From a virus: a DNA stretch of 35,183 nt. The DNA lies in IMG/VR virus record IMGVR_UViG_3300036772_000235, positions 1 to 35,183 of that record. The stretch is one strand, 5' to 3'. Positions 853 through 35,183 of the stretch are shown one piece after another (position 1 is the first letter of the stretch; each line of letters starts with the position of its first letter). Under the pieces are notes generated by a model. It saw only the letters and a program-made list of their open reading frames with translations. It did not search any database and was not told the DNA's origin. The position numbers and the translations under genes are program-made.

Positions 853-900
853 ATGAAAAGGATTTTTCATTTTTTAATAAAAAATACTAGGAGTTTATAA
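853..900 (+). CDS. Leader peptide, 15 aa, coupled to exonuclease gene
   Basis: An AAGGAG site six bases upstream starts a 15-codon reading frame (MKRIFHFLIKNTRSL). Its TAA overlaps the exonuclease ATG as TAATG. The AGGAG for the exonuclease lies inside this frame, so translating the leader may open or re-initiate translation of the next gene. It could be a functional leader or a micropeptide. There is no independent proof that it is translated. Confidence 0.5.
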   Translation: MKRIFHFLIKNTRSL

Positions 901-1739
901 TGATTACATCGCAACAAAGAGAAGAACGACGTTTAGGAATTGGCGGCTCTGATATGCCCATTATCATGGGTTTTTCTGAATATAAAACGCCTTATCAATT
1001 ATATCTAGAAAAAATCGGACAGGGTAAATCTTCTGATAACCAAAATGAACTACAGTACTGGGGCTCTCAATTAGAAGGAGTTATTCGAGATGAGTTCGCA
1101 AAAAGACATAATGTGTCCGTTGAGACTCCAGATACACTCATCCATCCTGATTATCCTTTTCTACGTGGCAATATCGATGGCTTTGTCCCTGCTTATAATG
1201 CGGTCCTGGAAGTTAAATGTTCATCCGCTTATCGCGCAAGTGACTGGGGCGAAGATGGTTCAGATAATATTCCGATGCCCTATTTGGTGCAAGTAGCTCA
1301 TTATTGCACTATTTCTAACGCAGATTGCGCCTACATTGCAGTGCTCATTGGTGGCAATGAATATCGTGAATACAAGTATGAGCGCAACATAGAATTTGAA
1401 AATCATATCATAGGATATGCAAAAAGATTCTGGGATTGTGTGCAAAATAAAACACCTCCTAATCCTGAAGAAATTATTGATTTGCGACTTTTATTTCCAA
1501 AGCAACATCCAGGAAAGGTAAAATCAATAAATTCTGATATTGAAATGAAAATATCTTCTTTATTTGATACTCGACTTCAAATAAAAAAGCTTAGCGATAT
1601 GGAAGACCAATATAAATTCCACATTATGCAATTTATGGAAGATGCCGAGTGCTTAGTCAATCAATCCGGACAGCCTATCATTACATGGAAGGCTAATAAG
1701 CGTGGCAGCCGTACTTTTCTAATGAAAGGAGTGAACTAA
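900..1739 (+). CDS. YqaJ-family phage recombination exonuclease
   Basis: This 279-residue protein has the YqaJ/lambda-exonuclease fold signatures: GGSD at residues 15-18, a Glu in QLEGVIRDEF (59), the metal-binding Asp in GNIDG (93), E-V-K at 104-106 and a Gln-containing helix around 131 (LVQVAHY). Members degrade the 5' strand of double-stranded ends to leave 3' overhangs for an annealing partner. That partner follows directly, sharing the TAATG junction at 1739. The start is set by AGGAG six bases upstream. Together with the next two genes it forms a Red-like recombination module, probably used in replication and repair of phage DNA. Confidence 0.9.
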   Translation: MITSQQREERRLGIGGSDMPIIMGFSEYKTPYQLYLEKIGQGKSSDNQNELQYWGSQLEGVIRDEFAKRHNVSVETPDTLIHPDYPFLRGNIDGFVPAYNAVLEVKCSSAYRASDWGEDGSDNIPMPYLVQVAHYCTISNADCAYIAVLIGGNEYREYKYERNIEFENHIIGYAKRFWDCVQNKTPPNPEEIIDLRLLFPKQHPGKVKSINSDIEMKISSLFDTRLQIKKLSDMEDQYKFHIMQFMEDAECLVNQSGQPIITWKANKRGSRTFLMKGVN

Positions 1740-2587
1740 TGGGTAACGTAATCGCACTGAATACAAGACAAGACATGTGGCATGATAAAACTCAACTGGA
1801 TGAAATACGTCGAATGGTATCTGCCACACAATTAAGTGAGGTAGAATTCAAAACATTTGTAAGCATAGGCCGTGCCACAGGACTTAACCCTTTTATGAAA
1901 GAACTTTGGGCGGTAAAGTACAGCGCAAAGCAACCAGCACAAATATTTATAGGACTTAACGGATATCGTCTCGGCGCAACACGTCATCCTGATTATGAAT
2001 ATCATTCAGCTAATTCCATTTATTCAAATGATGAGTTTTTTATGGTTGAAGATGGAATCAAACACAAGGCAAAGATAATCGATCGAGGTAATTTGATTGG
2101 GGCTTATTGTATTGTGAAGCGAAAGAATTCTACACGTTATTCATATGTTGTTGTCACAATGAAAGAATACAATCAGGAACAAAGTTTATGGAAATCAAAA
2201 CCAGAAACAATGATTAAAAAAGTCGCTGAGTGCCAAGGATTGCGCCAAGCATTTCCTGAAATATTTAACGGAACTTATGTTGATGCAGAAATGCCAAGTT
2301 CCCAGCAGGTTTCAAAGGAAATCGAAGGCAACACAAAAACCGAAAAACTTCTGAATATTTTAAAACAAAGAGAAAGTATTGATGCCGAAACAGGCGAGGT
2401 CATAGAGCATGAAACATCTATGCAACGGATAAATCAACTCATGGAGGAAATCAATCTACCCACGGACCGGATAGAAAAGGCATTCGCTCATTACGAAATA
2501 AGTGCATTGCATGAAATGAATGAATCACAACAGGAATCTTTTCTAAATTATTTGGAAAAAATGAAAAAAAAATTGGGGAGTGAATAA
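1739..2587 (+). CDS. bet: Bet/RecT-superfamily single-strand annealing protein
   Basis: This 282-residue protein matches Red-beta-type annealases. The region IGRATGLNPFMKELWAVKY (about 43-61) is the conserved N-terminal motif, and the KPETMIKKVAECQGLRQAFPE stretch is the conserved C-terminal part of the core. The last 90 residues are a less conserved helical tail. Such proteins pair complementary single strands produced by the partner exonuclease. The gene is coupled to its neighbours by TAATG overlaps on both sides, with AAAGGAG upstream of its start. The Bet type is favoured over the RecT type on the motif, but I could not run a profile search. Confidence 0.88.
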   Translation: MGNVIALNTRQDMWHDKTQLDEIRRMVSATQLSEVEFKTFVSIGRATGLNPFMKELWAVKYSAKQPAQIFIGLNGYRLGATRHPDYEYHSANSIYSNDEFFMVEDGIKHKAKIIDRGNLIGAYCIVKRKNSTRYSYVVVTMKEYNQEQSLWKSKPETMIKKVAECQGLRQAFPEIFNGTYVDAEMPSSQQVSKEIEGNTKTEKLLNILKQRESIDAETGEVIEHETSMQRINQLMEEINLPTDRIEKAFAHYEISALHEMNESQQESFLNYLEKMKKKLGSE

Positions 2588-3006
2588 TGTTTTGTAGCGC
2601 AACGATATTAGGCCGTGTTGGCAAAAAAGATACATCTACTTTAAAAAATGGAAGTGAGCTGACCATGATTTCTGTGGCAACAAGCAAAAAGTTTAAAGAC
2701 TCACAAGGTACGCCTAAAGAAGTCACAACTTGGCATAGAGTGAATTGCTTTGGGAAAGTTCAAGAGATTGCGAATAAGTATGTGCAGGTCGGCGATACGG
2801 TTTTTGTGCGAGGCGAAATCAATCACACGCAAATTGAACATGGAGAGAAAGCCGGGCAGTGGTCTTACAATGTAAATGCTTCTGACATTCGATTCATACC
2901 GAAAGGAAAGAAGGAAGGCCAAGAAGAGACATCTACACGACAACATTCTACTTCAAACAATCAGAAGAATCATTTTGAATTTGAAGATGATGGCATAGCG
3001 TTCTAA
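2587..3006 (+). CDS. ssb: Single-stranded DNA-binding protein
   Basis: This 139-residue protein has an OB fold over about residues 1-105, starting MFCSATILGRVGKK and including TWHRVNCFGKVQEIANKYV and GDTVFVRGEI, as in bacterial SSB. A Ser/Gln/Asn-rich linker follows. The C-terminal tip EFEDDGIAF resembles the acidic DDDIPF tail through which SSB recruits partner proteins. It coats single-stranded DNA during phage recombination and replication. It is the third gene of the exonuclease-annealase operon and is followed by an intrinsic terminator. Confidence 0.93.
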   Translation: MFCSATILGRVGKKDTSTLKNGSELTMISVATSKKFKDSQGTPKEVTTWHRVNCFGKVQEIANKYVQVGDTVFVRGEINHTQIEHGEKAGQWSYNVNASDIRFIPKGKKEGQEETSTRQHSTSNNQKNHFEFEDDGIAF

Positions 3007-3284: not shown

Positions 3285-3662
3285 ATGAAGAAAATAATAG
3301 GAAGTGGGTTAATGCTTCTCGCTCTTAACTCACATGCAGGTTTCAATGGTCCTACAGCCCACAGTCGTGGGAATTGTGTCAATAATGAATCGATTACATG
3401 GTCAGCCATAAGCTCTTGGCAATGGCGTGTTGTTAGCTTTCATAATCCCGATTGGAATCATCCCGGTGTTGGTTATCATTATGTTGATACCGGAATGGCC
3501 TATACATGGCGTCAAGCAGCTGTTCATTGGAATGAATCTTATCCTGGTGGTAAGTATCTCGTTGTTGGGTTTCATTATTATATTGATAAAGGACGCGAAC
3601 GTTTAGATACGAACACAGAAGCTACAGATTGTAGTATTTATGACGGATGGTGGGACGTATAA
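3285..3662 (+). CDS. Secreted Trp-rich protein, 125 aa, unknown
   Basis: The N-terminus MKKIIGSGLMLLALNSHA is a typical Sec signal peptide with likely cleavage after residue 18. The mature part of about 107 residues is rich in aromatics (eight Trp) and His, and has two Cys (31 and 116) that could form one disulfide. No transmembrane segment follows. TTGGAG lies seven bases upstream of the ATG. The gene ends one base into the next frame and is co-transcribed with a second secreted protein. Role unknown. A periplasmic or extracellular protein encoded near phage early genes could be a conversion, exclusion or lysis-related factor. Confidence 0.75.
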   Translation: MKKIIGSGLMLLALNSHAGFNGPTAHSRGNCVNNESITWSAISSWQWRVVSFHNPDWNHPGVGYHYVDTGMAYTWRQAAVHWNESYPGGKYLVVGFHYYIDKGRERLDTNTEATDCSIYDGWWDV

Positions 3663-3676
3663 TGGGAACTATAAAT

Positions 3677-4432
3677 ATGAAAAAGACAATTATTGCATTA
3701 AGCATGATTCCTGCATTAGCAGGTGCTGCCATAAATCAACAAAATGATTCCATTCCTAAAGAATATATTGAAGTGCTTCAGAAGAAAGGCTTACCAACGC
3801 CAGATTCCGGAGTGCAACTAGTCCCTCAAGCAAGCTTCAAAGTAAAAGGTTGGCAAGCACAGCAATATCTCGCAGAAGATAAAGAAATGAAGGAAAAAGG
3901 ATATATCAATCGCAACTCTGAACGAGCATATGATCTCCTAAATCTTCCTGAAGTCATGAAAAAAAGAAAAATACAACAAGCTAAATATTTCAAAGGAACT
4001 GATTCTCATCTTCGTACTAACCCACAAGATATTCCTTTTGCTTATACTTTTGTTGGCGTTCCTCTTGATGTTATGGAAGAATTTTATGGTATCGCACCGA
4101 TTGGAACTTATGTAACTAGAGAACCAAAAGGATGGACCGGAGCTATTGAATTCTTTAAATCTTCGTTCGCTTACTGTTCTTATTCCGAAAACAATATGAA
4201 AGCTGCTCGTGGAGCTGCTCGTATCGCTCAGGAACAGGCGTCTTATGATGTAAATGGTAAAATAACTTTAATTGATGTCGAAGGAAATGAGAGTTCTGGA
4301 TTCTTATATCATGTGAATTGGTATGATGATATCTTCATTCGTGATGTTGAATGTGCCAGCAGAGAATTCTCGAAGAAAACGCTGCTTAATACGATCGATC
4401 TCGCCCAAAAAATAGATAAAGCTTATTTTTAA
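3677..4432 (+). CDS. Secreted protein, 251 aa, unknown
   Basis: I start at the third in-frame ATG because it gives a clean Sec signal peptide (MKKTIIALSMIPALAGA, cleavage near 17). Earlier ATGs at 3647 and 3662 would add charged residues in front of it. The mature part is soluble and mixed alpha/beta, with two Cys (167 and 226) suited to a disulfide. It contains a helical KEMKEKGYINRNSERAYDLL region and a C-terminal helix rich in Lys and Asp. I recognise no family. It follows the Trp-rich secreted protein by 14 bp, and the pair is closed by a hairpin at 4444-4465. The two may act together in the periplasm. Confidence 0.75.
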   Translation: MKKTIIALSMIPALAGAAINQQNDSIPKEYIEVLQKKGLPTPDSGVQLVPQASFKVKGWQAQQYLAEDKEMKEKGYINRNSERAYDLLNLPEVMKKRKIQQAKYFKGTDSHLRTNPQDIPFAYTFVGVPLDVMEEFYGIAPIGTYVTREPKGWTGAIEFFKSSFAYCSYSENNMKAARGAARIAQEQASYDVNGKITLIDVEGNESSGFLYHVNWYDDIFIRDVECASREFSKKTLLNTIDLAQKIDKAYF

Positions 4433-5585: not shown

Positions 5586-6593
5586 TCAGCGAGCCCTTCG
5601 TGCAAAAATAGAACCATAGCCTGCAAGAGTACCTGCACTATAAGTGACATTTACAACCAGATAGATAGTTGTGGTCGATGCTAAACTGAATCGTCGATAG
5701 GGAATGGGAGTAGAAGGAAAGCCCAAATTTGAGCCTGTTTCACTTGAGAAGGTAGATACTGGACCAAAAGTTACTGAGGTATCACTCGATCCTTGGTTGG
5801 TAACTGTAATAGGCCCAATACTTGGGGAATAAACTACATCTCCATAAACATCCCAATCACCAGCAGTTAAGGAAATGGAAGTAATATTAGCCGTTGTGGC
5901 TGACGTTAAGGCGACAGGACCAGCTGGTACAACCGAACTGACAAACTCTCCTACACTTCCAGCTGCTGCATTATCATTCGTTGTTGTACCTATAATTCCA
6001 GAGGTTGTAGAGAATGAAACGGAACCAAATTGTACGTTGCTACTCGTTCCAATAGATTGAGGAGTACTTAGCATTACTGCTCCGATTGATGCCGAAGCAA
6101 TTACTTGGTTCGCAGTTCCTGTTATAGTGCTTACGCCGGCCGTGTTATAACCATAATCAGAATTCCAACTTGCAGCTGTTGTTCCAGAAGTTAAGATGCA
6201 CGTAATGATTGCCTGTGTTGCAGGAGCCATAGAAGTAATCGTATTGCTTCCAGAAGATTGTACTGTAACAACTCCACTAGAGTTGTTAACGATTAACCAA
6301 GATTGGCCCAATACTAATGTACTTGTAACAGGCATTTGAACAGTCTGAGTTGTAGAACCAGTGAAAAATTGTTGGTATGCACTCGCGACCGTTAATGTGG
6401 TCGTTCCTGCTGCCGTGGCTGTCGTCGCATAACCCTCCAAGGCATTATTCATTGATAGATTTTTGTTTGCATCCCATCCTGCCCAAGCAGTTGCAGCTGG
6501 TGCAATAGTCACTGCATTAAATCCAGTCCCACCATCTATAATTGGTAATGGACTTGTTGTATTGGCGTTAATGGCATTGTTAATAGTAGACAT
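5586..6593 (-). CDS. Fibre/appendage protein, 335 aa
   Basis: A Ser/Thr/Ala/Val-rich, beta-structured protein typical of phage tail appendages. The N-terminal part contains PLPIIDGGTGFNAVT, a motif widespread in phage fibre proteins. The C-terminal domain (about 215-335) with LTAGDWDVYGDVVY and a closing IPYRRFSLASTTT ... FARRAR segment also recurs in appendage proteins of many phages. AAGGA lies seven bases before the ATG. It is the last of six consecutive fibre-like genes and directly precedes the endolysin. It probably sits at the tail tip or on head fibres; the exact attachment is unknown. Confidence 0.7.
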   Translation of the reverse strand: MSTINNAINANTTSPLPIIDGGTGFNAVTIAPAATAWAGWDANKNLSMNNALEGYATTATAAGTTTLTVASAYQQFFTGSTTQTVQMPVTSTLVLGQSWLIVNNSSGVVTVQSSGSNTITSMAPATQAIITCILTSGTTAASWNSDYGYNTAGVSTITGTANQVIASASIGAVMLSTPQSIGTSSNVQFGSVSFSTTSGIIGTTTNDNAAAGSVGEFVSSVVPAGPVALTSATTANITSISLTAGDWDVYGDVVYSPSIGPITVTNQGSSDTSVTFGPVSTFSSETGSNLGFPSTPIPYRRFSLASTTTIYLVVNVTYSAGTLAGYGSIFARRAR

Positions 6594-6603
6594 AATATCT
6601 TCC

Positions 6604-7242
6604 TTAAACTATGGTCAACATTCCTATTGAACCGATTACATTCCATGTTGTATTGGCTGAAACACAGACTAATTTGACATAGTCATTTTGATTCATTGAA
6701 GACAAACTTCCACTACTTCCTGTTGTTGAACTGACATTACCAAAATTTATGGATTGTCCAATTTCTTGTGTTAGAGTCCAGCCACCGCTTGAGACCCCAG
6801 AGATTTCAAGTGTAGTTCCAAATGCAGCAGTAGTTGGTAATGTAAACGTAGATAAAGTCGCGCCATTGTTTGTAACATAACTGTAATTAGGAAGCATAGT
6901 AATGGGCGTCGAACTGGCCAAGAGCCAGTTACTTTGGGCATTGATGCATTCAGTCCAGACCGCAGTAGAAGCTATACCACTAGTGGTACATACCCACAAA
7001 ACATTATCTACAGTATCCCAACATAATTGATATGTAGTACCAGCAACAAATCCATTTGGATTTCCTGGATAAGATAAAATTAAATTCGATTGGAATAAAT
7101 TATAAACTTGCTGTAATGTTTCTTGAACAGAAAGACCCAGGCTCAAAGGACTTGAAGTGTATCCTTGAACTGCACATATAATATCGGTCATTTGCGCTGT
7201 CCCAACTGTGGGCAGCGAAGTAAACATTTGTTCCGTAGCCAT
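6604..7242 (-). CDS. Fibre-like virion protein, 212 aa, shared C-terminal domain
   Basis: The last 90 or so residues (TFTLPTTAAFGTTLEISG ... VIGSIGMLTIV) are clearly paralogous to the end of the 362-residue protein at 8076-9164, including GGWT, the FGNV motif and SANTTW. The N-terminal half (TSLPTVGTAQMTDIICAVQG) differs and probably provides attachment or trimerisation. Composition is Ser/Thr/Asn-rich and poor in Lys, as in trimeric fibres. AAGGA is placed seven bases upstream. A structural role at the tail is likely from its neighbours. Confidence 0.65.
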   Translation of the reverse strand: MATEQMFTSLPTVGTAQMTDIICAVQGYTSSPLSLGLSVQETLQQVYNLFQSNLILSYPGNPNGFVAGTTYQLCWDTVDNVLWVCTTSGIASTAVWTECINAQSNWLLASSTPITMLPNYSYVTNNGATLSTFTLPTTAAFGTTLEISGVSSGGWTLTQEIGQSINFGNVSSTTGSSGSLSSMNQNDYVKLVCVSANTTWNVIGSIGMLTIV

Positions 7243-7265
7243 TTCAAAATCCTTTGATTAAATTT

Positions 7266-8048
7266 TTAAGAAAATTCCCAGACAATAATAAGGCCACCGG
7301 AACCATTTCCGCCTGGTTGATTTGATGCATTTCCTGAGCCTCCACTACCACCCGCGCCATATCCAGTCGCATTGAAAGATTGGTCGCTTGTGGCTGTTAT
7401 TCCTCCTTGGCCATACTGACTGTTGCCGCCTGCACCGCCAAAAAATGAATTCGCAAGACCTATTCCTGGGAAACCGGCGCCGCCTTGTATATTTATATCA
7501 CCGTTAGAACCCGTTCCTGGACTTTGCGCTGCACCTCGCGTCATCCCTGTAAAAGGAACAGCAATAGGTGAACCACCAAAACCAGAACTTCCTCCACTTG
7601 CTGATAATGATGACGCGCTAAAACTTGTCGTACCACCAGGTGATCCATTATTCGCACCAGAAGCTCCTCCAGCTCCTCCTGAACCTACCGTATAAGTATA
7701 GGTTGAGGCAGCAGAAGCTACATATAATCTAGCATATCCACCGGCATCTCCGCCCGAACCTGCTCCTAAATCTCCTGGACTTACAGCAGCGCCACCACCA
7801 CCACCTCCTCCTCCAACAACTTCAATTAAAATTGATGAAACATTTGCAGGTTTAGTATAAGTCTGCGCTGTCCCTGATGTGAACATTTGAAAACTGCGCA
7901 AGCCTCCAGTGATAGTGAGATTTGTAGCTACACCAGATGTAGGCGTGCCCAATGCAGGTGACACGAGAGTTGGTGATGTAGATCCAACAAATGTTCCTGT
8001 ACCTGTTGAACCGGCAAGCCCTACACTGACACTATTAATTGTAGTCAT
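7266..8048 (-). CDS. Glycine-rich tail fibre/adhesin-like protein, 260 aa
   Basis: The N-terminus contains the phage fibre motif TSPTLVSPALGTPTSGVATN. From about residue 55 comes FTSGTAQTYTKPANVSSILIEVVGGGGGGGGA, followed by about 170 residues dominated by Gly, Ser, Ala and Asn and closing with GGLIIVWEFS. This is the glycine-rich domain common at the tips of phage fibres, in which polyglycine loops display host-recognition surfaces. AGGA precedes the ATG. It is likely a receptor-recognition tip or a fibre accessory protein. Confidence 0.72.
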   Translation of the reverse strand: MTTINSVSVGLAGSTGTGTFVGSTSPTLVSPALGTPTSGVATNLTITGGLRSFQMFTSGTAQTYTKPANVSSILIEVVGGGGGGGGAAVSPGDLGAGSGGDAGGYARLYVASAASTYTYTVGSGGAGGASGANNGSPGGTTSFSASSLSASGGSSGFGGSPIAVPFTGMTRGAAQSPGTGSNGDINIQGGAGFPGIGLANSFFGGAGGNSQYGQGGITATSDQSFNATGYGAGGSGGSGNASNQPGGNGSGGLIIVWEFS

Positions 8049-8075
8049 TTATTATCATCCTAAATATAAGATTAT

Positions 8076-9164
8076 TTACACATACGTAATATTGCCGATG
8101 GAAGAGACAGCAATAAATGTTGTGTTTGCTGTGATGCAACGTAATCTAATGCAATCGTATTGATTTGAACTTGATAAACTTCCTCCAGTTCCAGATGTTG
8201 TGACCACGTTTCCGAAATGGATTTGCTGACCTGAGGCTTGAGCAATTGTCCAGCCACCGGATCCTTTTCCATTAATTTCCAACGAGTCTCCAATGGCAGC
8301 AGTGGTCGGCAACGTAAAGGTCACTAATGATGCACCAGCATCGGATGTATAACCTGTGTTTACTGCCATAACTACGGATGGTGTGGTTTGATCCACCCAA
8401 AGACTCGCGCCAGTTGCCGCAATGGTTATACTTCCAGCTCCATTGGTAATGGCGACACCGGTGCCCGCAGTCAATGTTGCCACAGCAGGAGTAGCGCCCG
8501 TACTACCTATGATTAATTGCCCATTTGTTAATGCTGATGTCCACTCAATATCACTTGCATTTGTTGTGATTAATACGGCACTTGCAGAAGGAGCCAATCC
8601 TGTAACTGTGTTTGCGCCATTGGAATATAAAATGGCATTTGTTACATATGTATCAGCGAACGTCGCAGTTGAGGCAACCCATCCAGTACCATTGGAACGC
8701 AAGACTGTACCGGTAGCACCTGCCGCTGTTGGAAATGTTGCTGTAGACCAGGATGGAGCTGCATTTGCGCCAGAGACTAAAACTTGGTTTGCAGTGGCAG
8801 TTCCGGCAAGTATAGCACCCGAACTTGCAGTAGAATAAAAGATACCGCCATTAGAAGCAGTAAGATTTGCATTGGTGCCGCCGCGCGCAAGACTCAATTC
8901 TCCAGACCATCCGGCCGTAATTGATGCTGCATGAAGAAGTGCTGTATTAGGCGTCCCACCAAGTGTTAGAGTGACATTGGTATCATTTGCAGAAGTTAAT
9001 GCAGCAGGAGTATAAGGAGTTCCAAATTGAGCAGCAAAATTCGCATAAGTCATTGCTGCATCATCACCTGCACCATAAGGCGATTGACCAAAATACATTA
9101 AATCAGTGGATACATTCGATGTAATTGGATTGGTCATATAGACCTGGTTAATATTCTTAGACAT
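8076..9164 (-). CDS. Fibre-like structural protein, 362 aa
   Basis: The N-terminal 50 residues (NPITSNVSTDLMYFGQSPYGAGDDAAMTYANF) look like a phage appendage attachment module. The middle contains LSLARGGTNANLTASNGGIFYS and several Ser/Thr/Ala-rich beta repeats typical of fibre shafts. The C-terminal 95 residues form a domain shared with the 212-residue protein at 6604-7242. AAGGA is six bases upstream of the start. The composition suggests a trimeric fibre. The shared C-terminal domain suggests two fibres with a common tip or chaperone-like end. Confidence 0.7.
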   Translation of the reverse strand: MSKNINQVYMTNPITSNVSTDLMYFGQSPYGAGDDAAMTYANFAAQFGTPYTPAALTSANDTNVTLTLGGTPNTALLHAASITAGWSGELSLARGGTNANLTASNGGIFYSTASSGAILAGTATANQVLVSGANAAPSWSTATFPTAAGATGTVLRSNGTGWVASTATFADTYVTNAILYSNGANTVTGLAPSASAVLITTNASDIEWTSALTNGQLIIGSTGATPAVATLTAGTGVAITNGAGSITIAATGASLWVDQTTPSVVMAVNTGYTSDAGASLVTFTLPTTAAIGDSLEINGKGSGGWTIAQASGQQIHFGNVVTTSGTGGSLSSSNQYDCIRLRCITANTTFIAVSSIGNITYV

Positions 9165-22200: not shown

Positions 22201-23496
22201 TTATAACACTACATAACCGATGAAAATTGTACCATTTAGCGCTGTTGCAGCAGTATTGTTATAAATGGTTAATGTTGCTGTGCCTGAGCCAGGAACGCAG
22301 CTAAATGTAATGTTTTGAACGGTATTGGTGCCACCTTGAATGGTTAACGCAATCACTGATGTAGCTGTGATGTGCGTGTTAGTCCAAGTGATCGCATAAC
22401 TTGCTCCACCTGCAGTTGTTAATGAAGATGTAGTGATTACACCCGCATTACCACTTGCAGTTACAGCATTGGCCGCTTCCGTTCCATTTACCTTCGCGAG
22501 ATTTAATTGGCTTCCTGCTGCCATCGCGGTAGTTCCCGTGTTCAGCACAAAACTCGCTGTACTTGCACCTGGATCTGGAATGCTTACTACAGAAGCCTGT
22601 CCCATGGCTGCATTTGAAATAGTGGTATTGGTATTACCGGTATTGGCAACGCCGGCTAATACCAATGAGCCTCTTGCGGCAGTACTTGGGAAGGATGCAA
22701 CTGTTCCTGCAGTGCCCGAGAGACCGGCCTGAATATTGCCACCGTTGATTGCTGTAGCAGCATCTTCGCCGAGGTTTCCTGTTGTATTAGTAAAGACAGC
22801 AAGATGATTCGCAATAGTGGGGGATGTGAATGTTGGAACACTTGCAGCTGCAATTCCAGAATCTGCAATAAGCCCAGCTGTACCACTTGCTTTGATTAAG
22901 TTATTGTTCACGAGAGCAGCAGGAGCTACTGCAAAATTAGCCGTTGCGGCCGCAGGATCTGGAATACTAACCACTGAAGCTTGACCCATTGCAACATTAC
23001 TGATGGTTGTATTTGTGTTTCCAGTATTAGCCACACCTGCAAGAATCAGAGAGCCTTTGCTTGCTGTTGCTGGAAAAGATGCAACTGTTCCAGCTGTTCC
23101 TGATAATCCTGCAGAAATATTTCCTGGTTGAATCACATTTCCCGCAGCGGAAGAAATTGTTCCTGTTGTATTAACGAAATGGGCAAGATAATTTGCTGTA
23201 GTAGGAAGTATAGCATCGCCGGGATTGCCCCATGTAGTCAGTGTTATTTGTCCTGTTGCGGGAGCAATATTTACTGTGAAAATACCGAATGTACCCGATT
23301 GAGTTTGCTGATTGTAACTATAAAGAGCCATGACCACGTCGGCATTGGACAGAGGGAATCCAGAAGCTATATTGCTGTTGGTCAAATAGCCCGCTGTTGT
23401 GACAGCCGTAAGATTGTCGCTGAAGACAGCGAATTTGAATTGTGGAAAGTTCCCATTAGTTACAGGAATAGGAACTGGCGATTGGAGAATACCCAT
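22201..23496 (-). CDS. Fibre-like virion protein with duplicated repeat, 431 aa
   Basis: An Ala/Thr/Asn/Ser-rich beta protein. A unit of about 56 residues occurs at 126-181 and again at 254-309, containing AGLSGTAGTVASFP, GVANTGNTNTTISN and MGQASVVSIPDP. The copies differ at about seven residues, whereas their DNA differs at many silent positions. The C-terminal 80 residues (ASYAITWTNTHITATSVIAL ... FIGYVVL) form a separate domain. AAGGA precedes the ATG. It is the last gene of the portal block, far from the other fibre genes, which suggests a head fibre or decoration role. This is inferred. Confidence 0.65.
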   Translation of the reverse strand: MGILQSPVPIPVTNGNFPQFKFAVFSDNLTAVTTAGYLTNSNIASGFPLSNADVVMALYSYNQQTQSGTFGIFTVNIAPATGQITLTTWGNPGDAILPTTANYLAHFVNTTGTISSAAGNVIQPGNISAGLSGTAGTVASFPATASKGSLILAGVANTGNTNTTISNVAMGQASVVSIPDPAAATANFAVAPAALVNNNLIKASGTAGLIADSGIAAASVPTFTSPTIANHLAVFTNTTGNLGEDAATAINGGNIQAGLSGTAGTVASFPSTAARGSLVLAGVANTGNTNTTISNAAMGQASVVSIPDPGASTASFVLNTGTTAMAAGSQLNLAKVNGTEAANAVTASGNAGVITTSSLTTAGGASYAITWTNTHITATSVIALTIQGGTNTVQNITFSCVPGSGTATLTIYNNTAATALNGTIFIGYVVL

Positions 23497-30931: not shown

Positions 30932-31066
30932 ATGAAAAAAGCGTCATTCATTATCGCCTTAATCACATTTCTTACTTCGTGCAATGTTCCTCCGAGCCAA
31001 AATTGCAAACCTCGCGGCTCGGGAGAAATCGAGCGTTTATTCTTTAGTCGCTGTCCTGAGAAATAG
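30932..31066 (+). CDS. Small lipoprotein, 44 aa
   Basis: The sequence MKKASFIIALITFLTSC is a short lipoprotein signal with lipobox LTSC, leaving a mature peptide of about 28 residues, NVPPSQNCKPRGSGEIERLF and on, with Pro and two more Cys. It would be a periplasm-facing lipoprotein. The Shine-Dalgarno is weak. It lies on the opposite strand from the late genes, with its own promoter, and its tail overlaps the end of the leftward 53-residue gene. Exclusion of superinfecting phage or an o-spanin role are possible. No i-spanin gene adjoins it, which argues against the latter. Confidence 0.6.
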   Translation: MKKASFIIALITFLTSCNVPPSQNCKPRGSGEIERLFFSRCPEK

Positions 31067-31205
31067 CATCTATTTTTTGCATCAAATTATAAATTTGGAT
31101 GCCATGCGAATCGCAGCGCGTGTTTACTTCTTTTAACCCTTCGTTTAATTTCTCGCCAACTTTGATAAGACGATCAAACATATTTATTAGTGTTTCACTG
31201 TCCAT
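31044..31205 (-). CDS. Small coiled-coil protein, 53 aa
   Basis: I start at MDSETLINMFDRLIKVGEKL, with AAAGGAGA about ten bases upstream. A TTG seven codons earlier overlaps that site. The sequence has heptad-like hydrophobics throughout and ends in QKIDAISQDSD. It resembles short helical phage proteins of unknown role. It lies between the small terminase and the lipoprotein gene, whose end it overlaps by 23 bp on the other strand. Confidence 0.55.
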   Translation of the reverse strand: MDSETLINMFDRLIKVGEKLNEGLKEVNTRCDSHGIQIYNLMQKIDAISQDSD

Positions 31206-31230
31206 ACCTGTAATCTCTCCTTTCAATTGA

Positions 31231-31291
31231 ATACCCGCACGATTTAAGCTTGTCTGGAATGTGTGTTAACGGACAGAGGCTTGGCGGGTAT
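31231..31291 (-). other. Structured leader/intercistronic RNA candidate
   Basis: ATACCCGC (31231-31238) and GCGGGTAT (31284-31291) form a perfect 8-bp outer stem. Nested inside, AAGC/GCTT and TGTC/GACA form further helices in the same order. The element lies between the small terminase stop and the next gene and reads the same stem on both strands. It may be an attenuator or processing site. Confidence 0.5.
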
Positions 31292-31296
31292 ATTCT

Positions 31297-31788
31297 TCAA
31301 CATTTCTTTTTGTATTCTTCTTCTAATTTCTTTTCATGTTCCAGTGCTTTATGGCCTTCAACATTCTGCGTATCGGCCTCTTCTTTTCGCTCACCATAAA
31401 TCTTTGGAGCTAATCGTGAAGCCTCCCATTTGCGGCTATTTGCACGTGCAATTCTCATGCTGGCTGAAGGAGGATCGATTCTCTCTTGGCCATTCGCATC
31501 TTTGATGTATAACAGAGGGCAATCGAGCATATCATCGACTTCTTGCACCTTCAAAATCGCTTGTAAGGCCTTGGCTTTTAAATATTTATCTCTGAACTCT
31601 GGGTGTTTTGTATGCCAAGTGTATATTGTTGAAGGAACTGGAAAATCATTGTACAGTGAAGCAATGGTATAAAGTCCAACAGGATTGGATGCAACTATTT
31701 CACAAATCCAATCGCCTAATTCCGGCGTGTAAATAGTAGGCCGTCCTGTTTTCAAATAATCCTTAGGGTCTTTTCTTGGCGTTGCCAT
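31297..31788 (-). CDS. terS: Terminase small subunit, Sf6-like
   Basis: This 163-residue protein has an N-terminal helix-turn-helix (GRPTIYTPELGDWICEIVAS, then TIASLYNDFPVPSTIYTWHTK) and a central helical part (YLKAKALQAILKVQEVDDML). DPPSASMRIARANSRKWEASRLAPKIYGER is the pattern of the Sf6-type small terminase. Its ring recognises the packaging site and activates the large subunit. The C-terminus is highly charged. GAGG is placed seven bases upstream. The gene for the large subunit follows only after 2.1 kb. Confidence 0.88.
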   Translation of the reverse strand: MATPRKDPKDYLKTGRPTIYTPELGDWICEIVASNPVGLYTIASLYNDFPVPSTIYTWHTKHPEFRDKYLKAKALQAILKVQEVDDMLDCPLLYIKDANGQERIDPPSASMRIARANSRKWEASRLAPKIYGERKEEADTQNVEGHKALEHEKKLEEEYKKKC

Positions 31789-31796
31789 AATTCACC

Positions 31797-32036
31797 TCAA
31801 ACCTTGTTATACGTTTCTTCGAATAGCTTAACAGCTTCTTCGCGTGTTGTTTCGGGATTTAAGGCCATTATTTCTTTTATCGCATCTTTGTAAGCCTTGC
31901 TCTTCTTATCAATTCTTACGGGTTTTACAACTTCTTTTTCTTCGTAGGAACCATAACCATCACAGGTAGAGCAATCTATCCTAACCATTCCATTGCCATA
32001 AAGCTCGCCAGTACCACCGCATCGACTGCAAAACAT
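31797..32036 (-). CDS. Zinc-ribbon protein with DnaJ-like CxxCxGxG, 79 aa
   Basis: CSRCGGTG (3-10) and CSTCDGYG (22-29) form a DnaJ-type zinc-binding pair. A basic linker (KEVVKPVRIDKKSKAYKDAIKEIM) and a C-terminal helix follow. AAGGA lies six bases before the ATG. It is the first gene of the leftward packaging operon, right behind an extended -10 promoter, which is where a regulator would be expected. Such small zinc proteins are common in phages and their role is usually unknown. Confidence 0.65.
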   Translation of the reverse strand: MFCSRCGGTGELYGNGMVRIDCSTCDGYGSYEEKEVVKPVRIDKKSKAYKDAIKEIMALNPETTREEAVKLFEETYNKV

Positions 32037-32065
32037 CCGCTATCCTTAGCTTATTACATGAAGCA

Positions 32066-32074
32066 ATCATAACA
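32066..32074 (-). promoter_or_regulatory. Extended -10 promoter of packaging operon
   Basis: Read leftward, TGTTATGAT includes TG, one base and TATGAT (32066-32071), an extended -10 box. The -35 is weak (TTTATT). It lies about 30 bp before the zinc-protein ATG and diverges from the operator-controlled rightward promoter at 32126-32154. Confidence 0.45.
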
Positions 32075-32112
32075 TGCTAATTTAATTGAATAAAGAAGAA
32101 AATAACACTTTA

Positions 32113-32154
32113 ATGTCTAAAATACTTGACATGCATAAGTCGTTTAGACATAAT
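32113..32154 (+). promoter_or_regulatory. Second rightward promoter with 39-bp operator dyad
   Basis: TTGACA (32126-32131) and CATAAT (32149-32154) are 17 bp apart. The perfect 9-bp inverted repeat ATGTCTAAA (32113-32121) and TTTAGACAT (32143-32151) flanks the -35 and overlaps the -10. A nested ACTT/AAGT dyad lies inside. The arm positions and offsets are identical to those at 776-817. It drives the four small rightward genes. Confidence 0.75.
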
Positions 32155-32183
32155 GACTACTCAACAAAACAAAAGGAACTATT

Positions 32184-32456
32184 ATGGCACAACAAATTTA
32201 TGCCTATGAAACACATAGAACACCGAAAAGCTTATGGATGTCTCATGTATTTTATGGAGATTGGTCAAATAACACCACAATCGCTGCGCGCTCGTTCATG
32301 ACCTATGAAGAAGCAGAAGCCTGGGGACAGGGCTTTATTAGCTGCATTGAATTACATCAACTTATGGAGGAAGACATTAAAGAAGGCAGATGGAACCCAA
32401 AAGATGATGATAGTCAACAAGAGATGCCCGACGATACAGAAGCTAAAAACGCCTAG
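32184..32456 (+). CDS. Small protein, 90 aa, unknown, first gene of operator-controlled operon
   Basis: Started at the ATG with AAGGAA seven bases upstream. The sequence begins MAQQIYAYETHRTPKSLWMS, continues with an aromatic region and a helix (TYEEAEAWGQGFISCIELHQLMEED), and closes with an acidic disordered tail. No family is recognised. It begins the four-gene rightward operon driven by the promoter at 32126-32154, the twin of the recombination-operon promoter, so it is probably made early. Confidence 0.6.
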   Translation: MAQQIYAYETHRTPKSLWMSHVFYGDWSNNTTIAARSFMTYEEAEAWGQGFISCIELHQLMEEDIKEGRWNPKDDDSQQEMPDDTEAKNA

Positions 32457-32501
32457 TAGCGTAGGTGATGTAATTTTAAAATAAAATAACAGGATAATAA
32501 A

Positions 32502-32708
32502 ATGAATTTCGCAGACCTAACTGATACGTGCTTTACATTCCAATGTGACTTGGCCAATGATAGATGTGACCACTGGGAATATGATTTCTCAGTGGAGCGA
32601 TGGGATGATAAGTATCATCGTAACTTGAGCCAATTGGAAATCGAACAACTTAAAATTAATTGCAAAGGGATTTTACAAGCAATTAATGCAATTCAAGGAG
32701 GAATATAA
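32502..32708 (+). CDS. Small acidic protein, 68 aa, unknown
   Basis: The sequence MNFADLTDTCFTFQCDLAND, then HWEYDFSVERWDDKYHRNLS, and a C-terminal helix (LEIEQLKINCKGILQAINAI) suggests a small mixed alpha/beta protein with several Cys. AGGA stands seven to eight bases before the ATG. It is the second of four genes and ends one base before the next ATG. No named family. Confidence 0.6.
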   Translation: MNFADLTDTCFTFQCDLANDRCDHWEYDFSVERWDDKYHRNLSQLEIEQLKINCKGILQAINAIQGGI

Positions 32709-32709
32709 G

Positions 32710-32829
32710 ATGAGTTACCGTGGCATGATGGAAGGATGGAATGAAGACGAAGTTTATGTAACTTCAGATGATTACGGTTATTATTATAAATGCGATGCTG
32801 ACTATGAAGCCAGTAGAGATGAGGATTAG
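32710..32829 (+). CDS. Very small acidic Tyr-rich protein, 39 aa
   Basis: A 39-codon frame with AAGGAGG eight bases before its ATG, the best ribosome site of the operon. The product MSYRGMMEGWNEDEVYVTSD ... YGYYYKCDADYEASRDED is strongly acidic and rich in Tyr. Acidic mini-proteins of this kind can mimic DNA and inhibit host enzymes, but that is speculation. The stop is followed by GGAG for the next gene. Confidence 0.6.
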   Translation: MSYRGMMEGWNEDEVYVTSDDYGYYYKCDADYEASRDED

Positions 32830-32838
32830 GAGAATAAC

Positions 32839-33033
32839 ATGGATGAAATAGCGAGCTTGATACCGAAGTTGTGGGCAATGGCTAAAGACCATACGAAGTT
32901 TAATGTTAATTTAATTTCCAAGGACGATGAAATCACTATTAGTATTTTAAAGGGCAAGCGCTGGAAAAGGTTTAAGAATAAAGATACGGATAAGTTGCTT
33001 GAAGATATTGAACAATCTCTTTTGTTAGCCTAG
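32839..33033 (+). CDS. Small basic protein, 64 aa, unknown
   Basis: MDEIASLIPKLWAMAKDHTKF opens with an amphipathic helix. A beta hairpin with basic residues (ISILKGKRWKRFKNKD) follows, and the protein ends in a leucine-rich helix. GGAG is six bases upstream of the ATG. It is the last gene before the terminator at 33039. Its TAG and the stop of the leftward 78-residue gene share the palindrome CTAG at 33030-33033. Confidence 0.6.
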   Translation: MDEIASLIPKLWAMAKDHTKFNVNLISKDDEITISILKGKRWKRFKNKDTDKLLEDIEQSLLLA

Positions 33034-33266
33034 TCGTCAGGAGTCTGCAAAGGCTCCTTTTTTTCAGAAACATAATCCGGCATTCCGTTATCGCGCCAAA
33101 CCTCCATATGAGCCCGTAGAGACGCGATCGGCAAATCACCATTCAACATATCGGTTTTATCGAGATCGTTCAATAGACGCAAAGCTACGAGCTTTGGCGA
33201 TACTCCTAACTCGAATCCGAGCCTGCTTATTATCTTTTTGCATTCATCTTTGGTTAATAACGACAT
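33030..33266 (-). CDS. Small protein at end of replication operon, 78 aa
   Basis: A helical protein (MSLLTKDECKKIISRLGFEL, then SPKLVALRLLNDLDKTDMLNG) closing in a disordered acidic tail. It overlaps the end of the P-like gene by 23 bp. The pattern of a short HTH-like helix pair is visible, but I do not recognise the family. Position after O and P suggests a replication or regulatory accessory role. It ends on the shared CTAG with the opposing operon. Confidence 0.55.
   Translation of the reverse strand: MSLLTKDECKKIISRLGFELGVSPKLVALRLLNDLDKTDMLNGDLPIASLRAHMEVWRDNGMPDYVSEKKEPLQTPDD
33039..33064 (+). terminator. Intrinsic terminator of four-gene operon
   Basis: AGGAGTC (33039-33045) pairs with GGCTCCT (33052-33058) around TGCAAA, and the stem runs into seven T. 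It is a textbook rho-independent terminator placed six bases after the last stop. It lies inside the end of the opposing leftward gene. Confidence 0.85.
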
Positions 33267-33969
33267 CTTCGTCTAATTTCATCCCAAGAATTTGTTTCAT
33301 GTAATTTATATTGGATTGATAGCCTTTTAAATTCTCAAATCCTTTTTTGATTTCATCTTGTTTTTTTACTTCACCTGTTTCATCCGTCTTGTCTTCAATC
33401 GCTTTAGGAATGTGTTTTAGTTTTCCTGAAATGAAGTCTCGAACAGCAATTTCATAATTACGATAAAAAAGAGGTTGTGTTTTAGTCGTTGGATTGTTTT
33501 TTAAAAAATACTTATCTGATTCGTGAATGGCATGTTCCAAGATCATCAATTGCTCAGGAGACATCCCGTCAATGTCGCCGTCCCTCATCAACTGATAAGC
33601 TCGATTGTATGCGTGTTCTTTGGGAAGAAAGTTATAGTCCTCTAGAGTGGGTTCGTTCCAATTTAAAAATTCACCTAGCTGAGGAGGTTTTGCATATTTA
33701 TGACGTTCCAATTGTCGGAGCGCTTTTTCTATTTGCTTTCGACTAACGAATCCTTTTCTGGAAAAGCATACTTGCCATTGCGTCTTCTCTGCTCTCTCCC
33801 GAGACTTATCTGAAAATAATTCATCAGTCCCTCGGCAATAAATATAAAACATAGCAAAGACGGCTTCGACCAATTTAGCGGACAATGGATTGATGATATT
33901 CAGATGCTCTTCTTCATTCTCAGATTCCGGGCGTGCATTAAGATTTATGATGTTGCTTATATGCTTCAT
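33244..33969 (-). CDS. Lambda P-like helicase loader
   Basis: This 241-residue protein begins with an acidic linker and a helical domain (AKLVEAVFAMFYIYCRGTDELF). RKQIEKALRQLERHKYAKPPQLGEFLNW (about 77-104), with the PPxxxEF motif, matches the lambda P family. The rest is helical and acidic. Such proteins deliver the host DnaB helicase to the phage origin bound by the O-like protein. Its start overlaps the O-like gene as ATGA, the typical O-P coupling. The assignment rests on the motif and order. Confidence 0.78.
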   Translation of the reverse strand: MKHISNIINLNARPESENEEEHLNIINPLSAKLVEAVFAMFYIYCRGTDELFSDKSRERAEKTQWQVCFSRKGFVSRKQIEKALRQLERHKYAKPPQLGEFLNWNEPTLEDYNFLPKEHAYNRAYQLMRDGDIDGMSPEQLMILEHAIHESDKYFLKNNPTTKTQPLFYRNYEIAVRDFISGKLKHIPKAIEDKTDETGEVKKQDEIKKGFENLKGYQSNINYMKQILGMKLDEDVVINQR

Positions 33970-34856
33970 AGTACGCCATCCATAATCGAGCTTGTAATCT
34001 CATCCCAGCTTTTGATTTTAGTTTTCGAAGAGGGCGCAGTGTTTTTATATATGTCTCCTTCCCATTCGTGCGCATTTAAGTAGGTTGCTGGAAACGGAAT
34101 CTTATTCTTGTCTCGACCATTCCAGTTGTTCTCCATTCGATTCTTCACATCTGCTACAAGCATCGCTACAAAGTCAGGCGTGGGTTTCAATTTCAAAAAC
34201 GCTTTATAAGCCACTCTAGGTTTTTCTTTGTTTGGGTAGTTCCCGTAAAACTGCATGAAAAGTAAATCAGACTTGTATGAGCCACCTTCAGTCGATTTCT
34301 TGGAATCGACATAAGGGTTTTTATCTTTTTCTATGTTATTTACTATATATGATATATAAGGGGCCGTGTTTTCCGGCGCCTGAGATTCCGGCGCCGGAAA
34401 ATCAGGCTCCGGGAACGACTCAGTACTGGCGTGGGTTTGAGACTGGTCGATTCCAAAATCGACTAAATTCCGACTATCCGAAAATCGACTAAGATGGACT
34501 CGATAATGAGGCCTAGTGAATAGATTGTTTTTTTTTATCTTTGTGCAAGTAATGAACTTTTCATTAAGAAGGAAATTAAGAATATCTCGCATTTTATCGC
34601 GGCCACATTGAAAATGTTCTTTGAGCTGTTTTACATTGATTTTCCAATCTTTTGGGCGACTCAAGAGATAAACATAAACGCCCAAAGCAGCCATGTCTCT
34701 GATTTCATTTATTGTTTTTGTGGGAATAATCGCAACACCGAATTCTTCTTTATCAAAGGTGCCTTCAAATTTTTCTATGTTTGCTTCATTATTGTTGTTG
34801 TTATTAACAGAAGACATAGTGTATAATTTCCTTGTGAAGTTGTTATTATTAGACAT
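33966..34856 (-). CDS. Lambda O-like replication initiator
   Basis: From the ATG at 34856 the product has 296 residues. A second ATG at 34817 with an identical leader gives 283 and cannot be excluded. A basic N-terminal winged helix-turn-helix region contains INEIRDMAALGVYVYLLSRP and VKQLKEHFQCGRDKMRDIL. A Pro/Glu/Ser-rich linker (PEPDFPAPESQAPENTAP) follows, then a C-terminal part with FYGNYPNKEKPRVAYKAFLKLKP and FPATYLNAHEWEGD, as in phage replication initiators and DnaT/DnaD-type proteins. It should bind the iterons that lie in its own linker region and recruit the P-like loader. Reading further upstream to 34991 adds residues unlike the family, so I reject that start. Confidence 0.78.
   Translation of the reverse strand: MSNNNNFTRKLYTMSSVNNNNNNEANIEKFEGTFDKEEFGVAIIPTKTINEIRDMAALGVYVYLLSRPKDWKINVKQLKEHFQCGRDKMRDILNFLLNEKFITCTKIKKNNLFTRPHYRVHLSRFSDSRNLVDFGIDQSQTHASTESFPEPDFPAPESQAPENTAPYISYIVNNIEKDKNPYVDSKKSTEGGSYKSDLLFMQFYGNYPNKEKPRVAYKAFLKLKPTPDFVAMLVADVKNRMENNWNGRDKNKIPFPATYLNAHEWEGDIYKNTAPSSKTKIKSWDEITSSIMDGVL
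34291..34490. other. Candidate replication origin inside O-like gene
   Basis: Palindromic iterons GTCGATTTCTTGGAATCGAC (34291-34310) and GTCGATTCCAAAATCGAC (34446-34463), and a related copy near 34471-34489, lie in the gene segment coding for the linker. A GC-rich cluster has 12-bp inverted arms TTTTCCGGCGCC (34369-34380) and GGCGCCGGAAAA (34390-34401) around a 14-bp perfect palindrome. An AT-rich stretch lies at 34311-34360. The order along the gene (iterons, then AT-rich DNA) mirrors lambda ori. Inferred from sequence only. Confidence 0.6.
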
Positions 34857-34875
34857 AGTGTATAACTTCCTTGTT
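34812..34875 (-). repeat. In-frame tandem duplication of translation start region
   Basis: A 24-25-bp sequence recurs 39 bp apart with one mismatch (34812-34836 and 34851-34875). Read leftward, each copy contains AAGGAA, about ten bases, and an ATG followed by TCT, so the O-like gene has two equivalent start sites in the same frame. Both may be used, or one copy may be a recent duplication. Confidence 0.6.
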
Positions 34876-34917
34876 GTTGCGGTTCTTGTCGCAACGCAGA
34901 TTTCCATTGGCGGTTGT

Positions 34918-35049
34918 ATGGACGTAATAAAGCCCAATGCGAAATCATTGTTACTTAAGGTAAAGAAAGGAGCGCCTGTCAAAGCATACATTTCTTACCG
35001 ACGTTATTCAGATGAAAGAGGCAGGATGCCTCAATCTCTTTTCAACTGA
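34918..35049 (+). CDS. Possible small basic protein, 43 aa
   Basis: If the O-like gene starts at 34856 or 34817, the region to 35050 is free. The + strand has a 43-codon frame, MDVIKPNAKSLLLKVKKGAP, rich in Lys and Arg. In-frame upstream starts (GTG 34834, 34858) would add a hydrophobic stretch ending IGGC, lipobox-like, but have no Shine-Dalgarno. The site before 34918 is weak too. I regard it as doubtful. Confidence 0.25.
   Translation: MDVIKPNAKSLLLKVKKGAPVKAYISYRRYSDERGRMPQSLFN
35018..35032 (-). terminator. Hairpin in leader of O-like gene
   Basis: GAGGCA (35018-35023) and TGCCTC (35027-35032) form a 6-bp stem with a three-base loop. Read leftward, TTTC follows. In the circle it lies between the 55-residue gene and the O-like gene, where an attenuator would set the ratio of cro-region to replication genes. 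Confidence 0.4.
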
Positions 35050-35050
35050 T

Positions 35051-35183
35051 AATACTCCCAATTGGTCAAAATTAAAATATTAGACATCCTTTTTATTTAA
35101 AAAATAATCCAATGATTCAATTATTTGCATTGTGACTTCATTAAGGATCTCTTGTGTGAGTGTTTTTCCGACGTGAAACATAG
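35051..35183. repeat. Terminal overlap of circular assembly (right copy)
   Basis: Identical to 1-126, then one base shorter. It contains the 3' part of the 55-residue leftward gene (stop at 35080-35082) cut by the window end. The missing base would shift that gene's frame, so this end is probably less reliable than the left copy. Confidence 0.9.

Follow-up and report, generated by a model that had tools for sequence, protein, structure and literature searches.

A candidate Cro-controlled early operon of small proteins in an apparently undescribed podophage lineage

Why would a phage keep four small genes, with one promoter and one intrinsic terminator, on the strand opposite to the genes around them? 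Such a cassette lies at 32184-33033 (+) of the 35,183-nucleotide stretch of viral DNA analysed here, called the window below. The initial annotation had suggested that cassettes of this kind often carry host-takeover or anti-defence factors. To what extent does the sequence of the phage and its relatives bear this out?

The phage and the coding content of the cassette

The window is a 35-kb phage which, by profile searches, encodes a P22-type portal (PF16510) and an Sf6-like small terminase. Its other genes include a YqaJ exonuclease, RecT, SSB, lambda P-like and O-like replication proteins, a GH108 lysozyme and a P22 Cro-like protein. An exact 126-bp repeat (1-126 = 35051-35176) stands at both contig ends, with about 35,050 bp of unique sequence; it is probably an assembly overlap, the contig being circular or circularly permuted, and could also be a true terminal repeat. 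The large terminase matches 54 viral-contig loci at 59-91% identity, while its best named-phage matches reach only about 33%, so the podophage lineage appears to be undescribed; a nucleotide search of named phages with the window gave no match. In a search of metagenome-assembled genomes (MAGs) for relatives just two contigs (L056 and L057) were found, with the MAG labels Bacteroidetes and Mucilaginibacter. A Bacteroidetes host was considered on these labels and set aside as a likely effect of binning errors: sigma-70 promoters and Shine-Dalgarno sites speak against it, and the two are therefore probably misbinned phage contigs.

Some other features of the genome may be recorded here. Two proteins encoded at 3285-4432 (+), 3' of SSB and on the same strand, have signal-peptide-like starts and no Pfam match, and are possibly part of the same early operon as SSB. 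The annotated start of the O-like protein crosses a repeated stretch (RKLYTMSNNNN..., about 34790-34900, -), and the alignment with the related contig L003 begins at residue 53; the protein may in fact begin further on, and the repeats could belong to an origin. A 431-aa protein at 22201-23496 (-) has internal repeat segments (VASFP.TA..GSL.LAGVANTGNTNTTIS), and low-complexity tail-like proteins are also found at 5586-9164.

The cassette genes, c1 to c4, and the genes adjoining them are as follows.

31797-32036, - strand: flanking gene for a DnaJ-type zinc-finger protein; synteny anchor, present in 27 of 29 relatives
32184-32456, + strand: c1, 90 aa, acidic, pI 4.45; variable first position; codon usage z 5.0
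32502-32708, + strand: c2, 68 aa, acidic; 13-member family A6
32710-32829, + strand: c3, 39 aa, acidic, Tyr-rich; degenerate member of the Cys4 family A8
32839-33033, + strand: c4, 64 aa, final cassette gene; family A5; predicted alpha-beta-beta-beta-alpha
33030-33266, - strand: flanking 78-aa gene adjoining the P-like helicase loader; synteny anchor

Are these open reading frames real genes? Each is preceded by a Shine-Dalgarno-like sequence (AAGGA for c1, AGGA for c2, AGGAGG for c3 and AGGAG for c4), and codon usage favours the reading frame over shuffled sequence in all four (z 3.0-5.0). The four short genes with ribosome sites proposed by the initial annotation are thus borne out. Against L003, dN/dS is 0.10 for c2 and 0.15 for c4; family pairs in which synonymous change is unsaturated give 0.03-0.16 for c2, c3 and c4, where the c3 ratio is measurable between relatives only, with the window's own member excluded. 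By these ratios the c2, c3 and c4 families are under purifying selection, and on conservation together with dN/dS the three are certain as genes; judged by their sequences they are new protein families. For c1 there is nothing credible among viral contigs and named phages. Taking this evidence together, all four open reading frames are real genes.

The 39-residue product c3 is acidic and Tyr-rich as described, with pI 4.05 and 7 Tyr. Its relatives are Cys4 proteins with the motif C-x3-CG-x-C-x2-C, which has been lost in the window and in L003. Another product had been called small and basic; this holds for most relatives of c4 (pI 9-10), but hardly for c4 of the window, with pI 8.0 and a charge of +0.6. 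The strand claim also stands in part. The 78-aa, P-like and O-like genes on one side and the zinc-finger and small-terminase genes on the other all lie on the minus strand, opposite to the cassette, but the exo-RecT-SSB operon (900-3006, on to 4432) has the same strand as the cassette.

Regulatory sequences of the cassette and of the cro region

What controls these genes? The following elements bound the cassette.

32114-32121, + strand: left operator arm TGTCTAAA, pairing exactly with 32143-32150
32126-32154, + strand: cassette promoter TTGACA-17-CATAAT, 11/12 consensus; at the same place in most relatives
32143-32150, + strand: right operator arm TTTAGACA, overlapping the -10 hexamer
33039-33064, + strand: intrinsic terminator, 8-pair stem and T-run

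The promoter is the top-scoring one within 31000-35183 and sits inside a perfect 8+8 bp inverted repeat, TGTCTAAA-N21-TTTAGACA (32114-32150), in agreement with the earlier description of a near-consensus, operator-flanked promoter. The terminator is likewise confirmed, but it falls within the 3' end of the 78-aa gene, which runs towards the cassette. A hairpin with a T-run follows the last gene in many relatives, though not in all. When the window was scanned for the same architecture of operator and promoter with at most three mismatches, 0.41 sites were expected and two were found, with 0 and 1 mismatch; there is no third such site in the window. The second one lies in the cro region.

564-761, - strand: P22 Cro-like regulator; PF14549 at E 1.5e-5 (below the gathering score), phrog_409 at E 4e-11
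777-813, + strand: second operator copy, 1 mismatch, surrounding the exo-RecT-SSB promoter (TTGACA 789-794, CATCAT 812-817)
900-3006, + strand: YqaJ exonuclease-RecT-SSB operon, the other operon with the cassette-type operator

Read from the sequence, the cro promoter (TTGACC 824-819, TATAGT 801-796) runs in the opposite direction and overlaps the exo promoter. The Cro-like gene is kept in 24 of 29 relatives. Is the link between the two sites a general one? For comparison of the arms, both the cassette and the cro-side promoters were extracted from relatives. Across 21 cassette promoters the complementarity of the arms is 5.29 of 8 positions, against 4.60 for shuffled ones (10 of 10,000 shuffles reach 5.29), and the paired arms covary, with AT, TA and CG exchanges at single positions. 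The arms vary from phage to phage, and in 17 genomes the cassette and cro-side copies match better within than between genomes: for the left arms the match is 5.18 within a genome versus 4.22 (1/10,000), and among 12 representatives 5.92 versus 4.71 (0/20,000). In comparison with the three nearest relatives, a genome's own arm pair is the better match in 13 genomes and the poorer one in 3. The sharing of arms appears to be partly explained by relatedness, and in G028 and G001 the cassette and cro-side arms differ.

Which protein reads the operator? Cro-like proteins whose helix reads RQYV[SA]LW occur with TGTAAA-type arms, and other arms are found where the helix is RxTVxxW. That helix type tracks arm type is consistent with Cro as the reader, and the Cro-like protein (564-761) is likely the operator-binding protein. 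One might suppose instead that the inverted repeat is read by a regulator of the host, as SrpA, a host protein, is reported to bind a palindrome 5' of a promoter of phage K5 (PMC5945682). However, the arms vary among phages, and in each phage they agree with the operator next to its own cro; a host reader is unlikely.

The cassette promoter thus has the operator architecture of the cro side, as would a member of the Cro-controlled early operons, and from the operator match within genomes we infer that the cassette belongs to the phage's Cro/early regulon. Early expression would follow from the same comparison, since the architecture is common to the cassette and to the recombination promoter beside cro, and their arms diversify together.

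The cassette in relatives and the predicted folds of its proteins

With the zinc-finger gene as anchor, an opposite-strand cassette was found at the same site in about 30 distinct contigs of uncultivated podophages. c2, c3 and c4 recur in it, between the P-like helicase-loader side and the zinc-finger/terminase gene. The usual order starts with variable first genes; c2 or an alternative 79-aa protein comes next, followed by c3, in some cases by a fifth gene, and by c4 just before the cassette end; the cassettes have 2-12 genes, compared with four in the window. In L013 and L015 the cassette is absent: the same-strand operon runs on uninterrupted, with one small zinc-ribbon-like gene between the anchors. 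This synteny, the turnover of first genes and the empty site bear out the idea of an isolated cassette.

Some relatives carry genes of recognisable families here. The L010 cassette includes an LPD25 protein. CsrA is encoded in the corresponding region of L039, which has a c2 homologue and no matching promoter, and a second copy is found in L040, where the promoter fit is weaker. In L021 and the near-identical L022, c4 stops after about 14 conserved residues (MDLITKIMAVLWAIN...), and this last gene appears to have been lost in the L021 phage. Profile scans with c3, c4 and the c2-type protein returned mostly contigs already in this lineage, and the zinc-finger anchor was checked in part of the new ones. 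The P-like loader as bait among viral contigs gave no match. Nothing, or chance matches, came from searches with c4 against named phages, with a c4 relative against named phages and plasmids, and with a c2-type relative against named phages. The alternative 79-aa protein was compared with c2 and with c4 as a possible member of one family; neither grouping is supported (probability 0.2% for c2).

Do the predicted structures give a hint of function? The c4 model (pLDDT 80.7) has the order alpha-beta-beta-beta-alpha. Its best structural match is the hibernation factor HPF of V. cholerae, with all 64 residues aligned at an rmsd of 1.9 A and a Z of 8.0, a borderline value, as Z under 8 may reflect a common arrangement; over the whole length double-stranded RNA-binding domains (dsRBDs) give Z 4.7-6.5 and T7 Gp1.2 gives 6.4. 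The model covers all but the first strand of the beta-alpha-beta-beta-beta-alpha fold of HPF/YfiA (Ribosomal_S30AE). In predicted fold c4 may resemble the HPF/YfiA ribosome hibernation factors and dsRBDs, but it lacks the first strand of the former and has no detected sequence or profile similarity to them: homology to HPF by profile is unsupported (hhalign probability 0.5%), and none of 20 c4 family members matches the HPF family in Pfam. A Foldseek search of the PDB with the model gave nothing under E 0.001, and the viral structure matched at 43% identity belongs to an uncharacterised protein of a phage. For c2 the model, beta-beta-beta-alpha, is of low confidence (pLDDT 62), and its structure matches, with Z at most 4, were set aside.

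It may be speculated from the c4 model that this family is a new phage early protein that copies the HPF/RaiA or dsRBD core, binds the ribosome or structured RNA and redirects host translation. The cassette would then be a post-transcriptional takeover module, as some cassettes without c4 carry CsrA, another RNA regulator. We regard this as quite improbable.

Possible roles and comparison with known systems

No cassette protein of the window has a Pfam match above the cut-off, a PADLOC match or a solved-structure match, and PHROGs gave only sub-threshold, weak matches of unknown function. Among these proteins no known anti-defence or takeover protein was matched (Pfam, PADLOC, PHROGs). Homology to virion proteins was likewise not found with Pfam and PHROGs, and the cassette is not co-oriented with the structural genes; the late genes lie on the opposite strand. 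Judged by its place and regulation, the size of its proteins, turnover and the genes found beside it in relatives, it is plausible that the cassette is an early, exchangeable host-takeover or counter-defence operon, as the initial annotation had supposed. The best explanation as a whole, to which we give a probability of roughly 0.6, is an accessory early operon, controlled by Cro, whose small proteins act on the host.

How might such an operon work? In this apparently undescribed lineage of podophages with a P22-type portal, the host sigma-70 RNA polymerase would read the cassette and exo promoters right after infection. As the Cro-like protein builds up, it would occupy the half-site pairs that surround the -35 and -10, turning both operons off, while the terminator would hold the cassette transcript back from the opposing replication genes. 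The cassette proteins would act on host targets in this short early period. For c4, with its dsRBD/HPF-like predicted fold and its basic charge in most relatives, the target would perhaps be RNA, the ribosome or an enzyme of the host; c1, c2 and c3, all acidic, would work through protein-protein contacts. The site 5' of c2 may be a position of gene swapping, occupied by c1 here, by LPD25 in L010 and by other genes elsewhere.

A narrower version of this explanation, whose confidence overlaps with it, is a dedicated anti-defence island, whose proteins would inhibit restriction, CRISPR, toxin-antitoxin or related systems and whose turnover would follow the defences of the host. The variable first genes, the strongly acidic small proteins and the early-type promoter would fit, as would the LPD25 protein, of a domain family known from polyvalent proteins of phages; moreover, searches guided by regulatory sequence in archaeal viruses have yielded such genes (PMC11065993). 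However, c2, c3 and c4 are conserved and not rapidly exchanged, and no anti-defence family was matched in Pfam or PHROGs; the lack of a PADLOC match says little, as its database holds defence rather than anti-defence models. Such an island is possible but tentative.

Is it the transcription rather than the proteins that matters? Lying precisely where the replication genes give way to the packaging genes, the cassette points against the leftward operon; 32037-32183 shows no good leftward promoter, and in L013 and L015, which lack the cassette, the operon is continuous at this place. Convergent transcription of the cassette might then oppose leftward cro-O-P transcription and delay the zinc-finger/terminase late genes until Cro closes the promoter, the proteins being secondary. 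Yet the low dN/dS argues for selection on the proteins, the terminator limits the transcript, and relatives without the cassette appear viable, so that this regulatory role is a rather unlikely one.

A classical moron is a cargo operon of a prophage, expressed constitutively for the benefit of the lysogen, as in lambdoid phages. It would also have its own promoter and terminator and lie between conserved genes that in relatives are immediate or near neighbours, as the cassette does. But the promoter here bears the phage early operator, and 21 related, possibly incomplete records, in which controls were detected, yielded neither an integrase nor an S24 repressor, which makes this reading very unlikely.

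For the accessory early operon, the cro-side operator offers a way to find early accessory genes of the lineage through their regulation. One further operon bears this operator, and it contains new small families under purifying selection and a swap position. Host-takeover or counter-defence candidates are thereby narrowed to a short list open to testing, from a lineage to which no named phage of the collection searched is close.

How does the cassette compare with known systems? Phage PTXU04 encodes CsrA and a polyvalent protein (PMC11879866); CsrA (L039, L040) and the polyvalent-type domain LPD25 (L010) are paralleled in the cassette region of relatives, while both are absent from the window's own cassette. 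The anti-defence genes of archaeal viruses (PMC11065993) are small as well, and what groups them is likewise an early regulatory sequence that is conserved, but the present cassette belongs to a bacterial phage, with a sigma-70 promoter and a Cro-type operator, and its role is proposed from sequence. No cassette gene matched a characterised takeover protein. The host-takeover module of the Bacillus phage SPO1 is a cluster of 26 genes (PMC6873191). There, as proposed for the cassette, small genes are thought to act early on host targets; the cassette differs in its 2-12 genes, its single promoter of its own and an operator common with the recombination operon.
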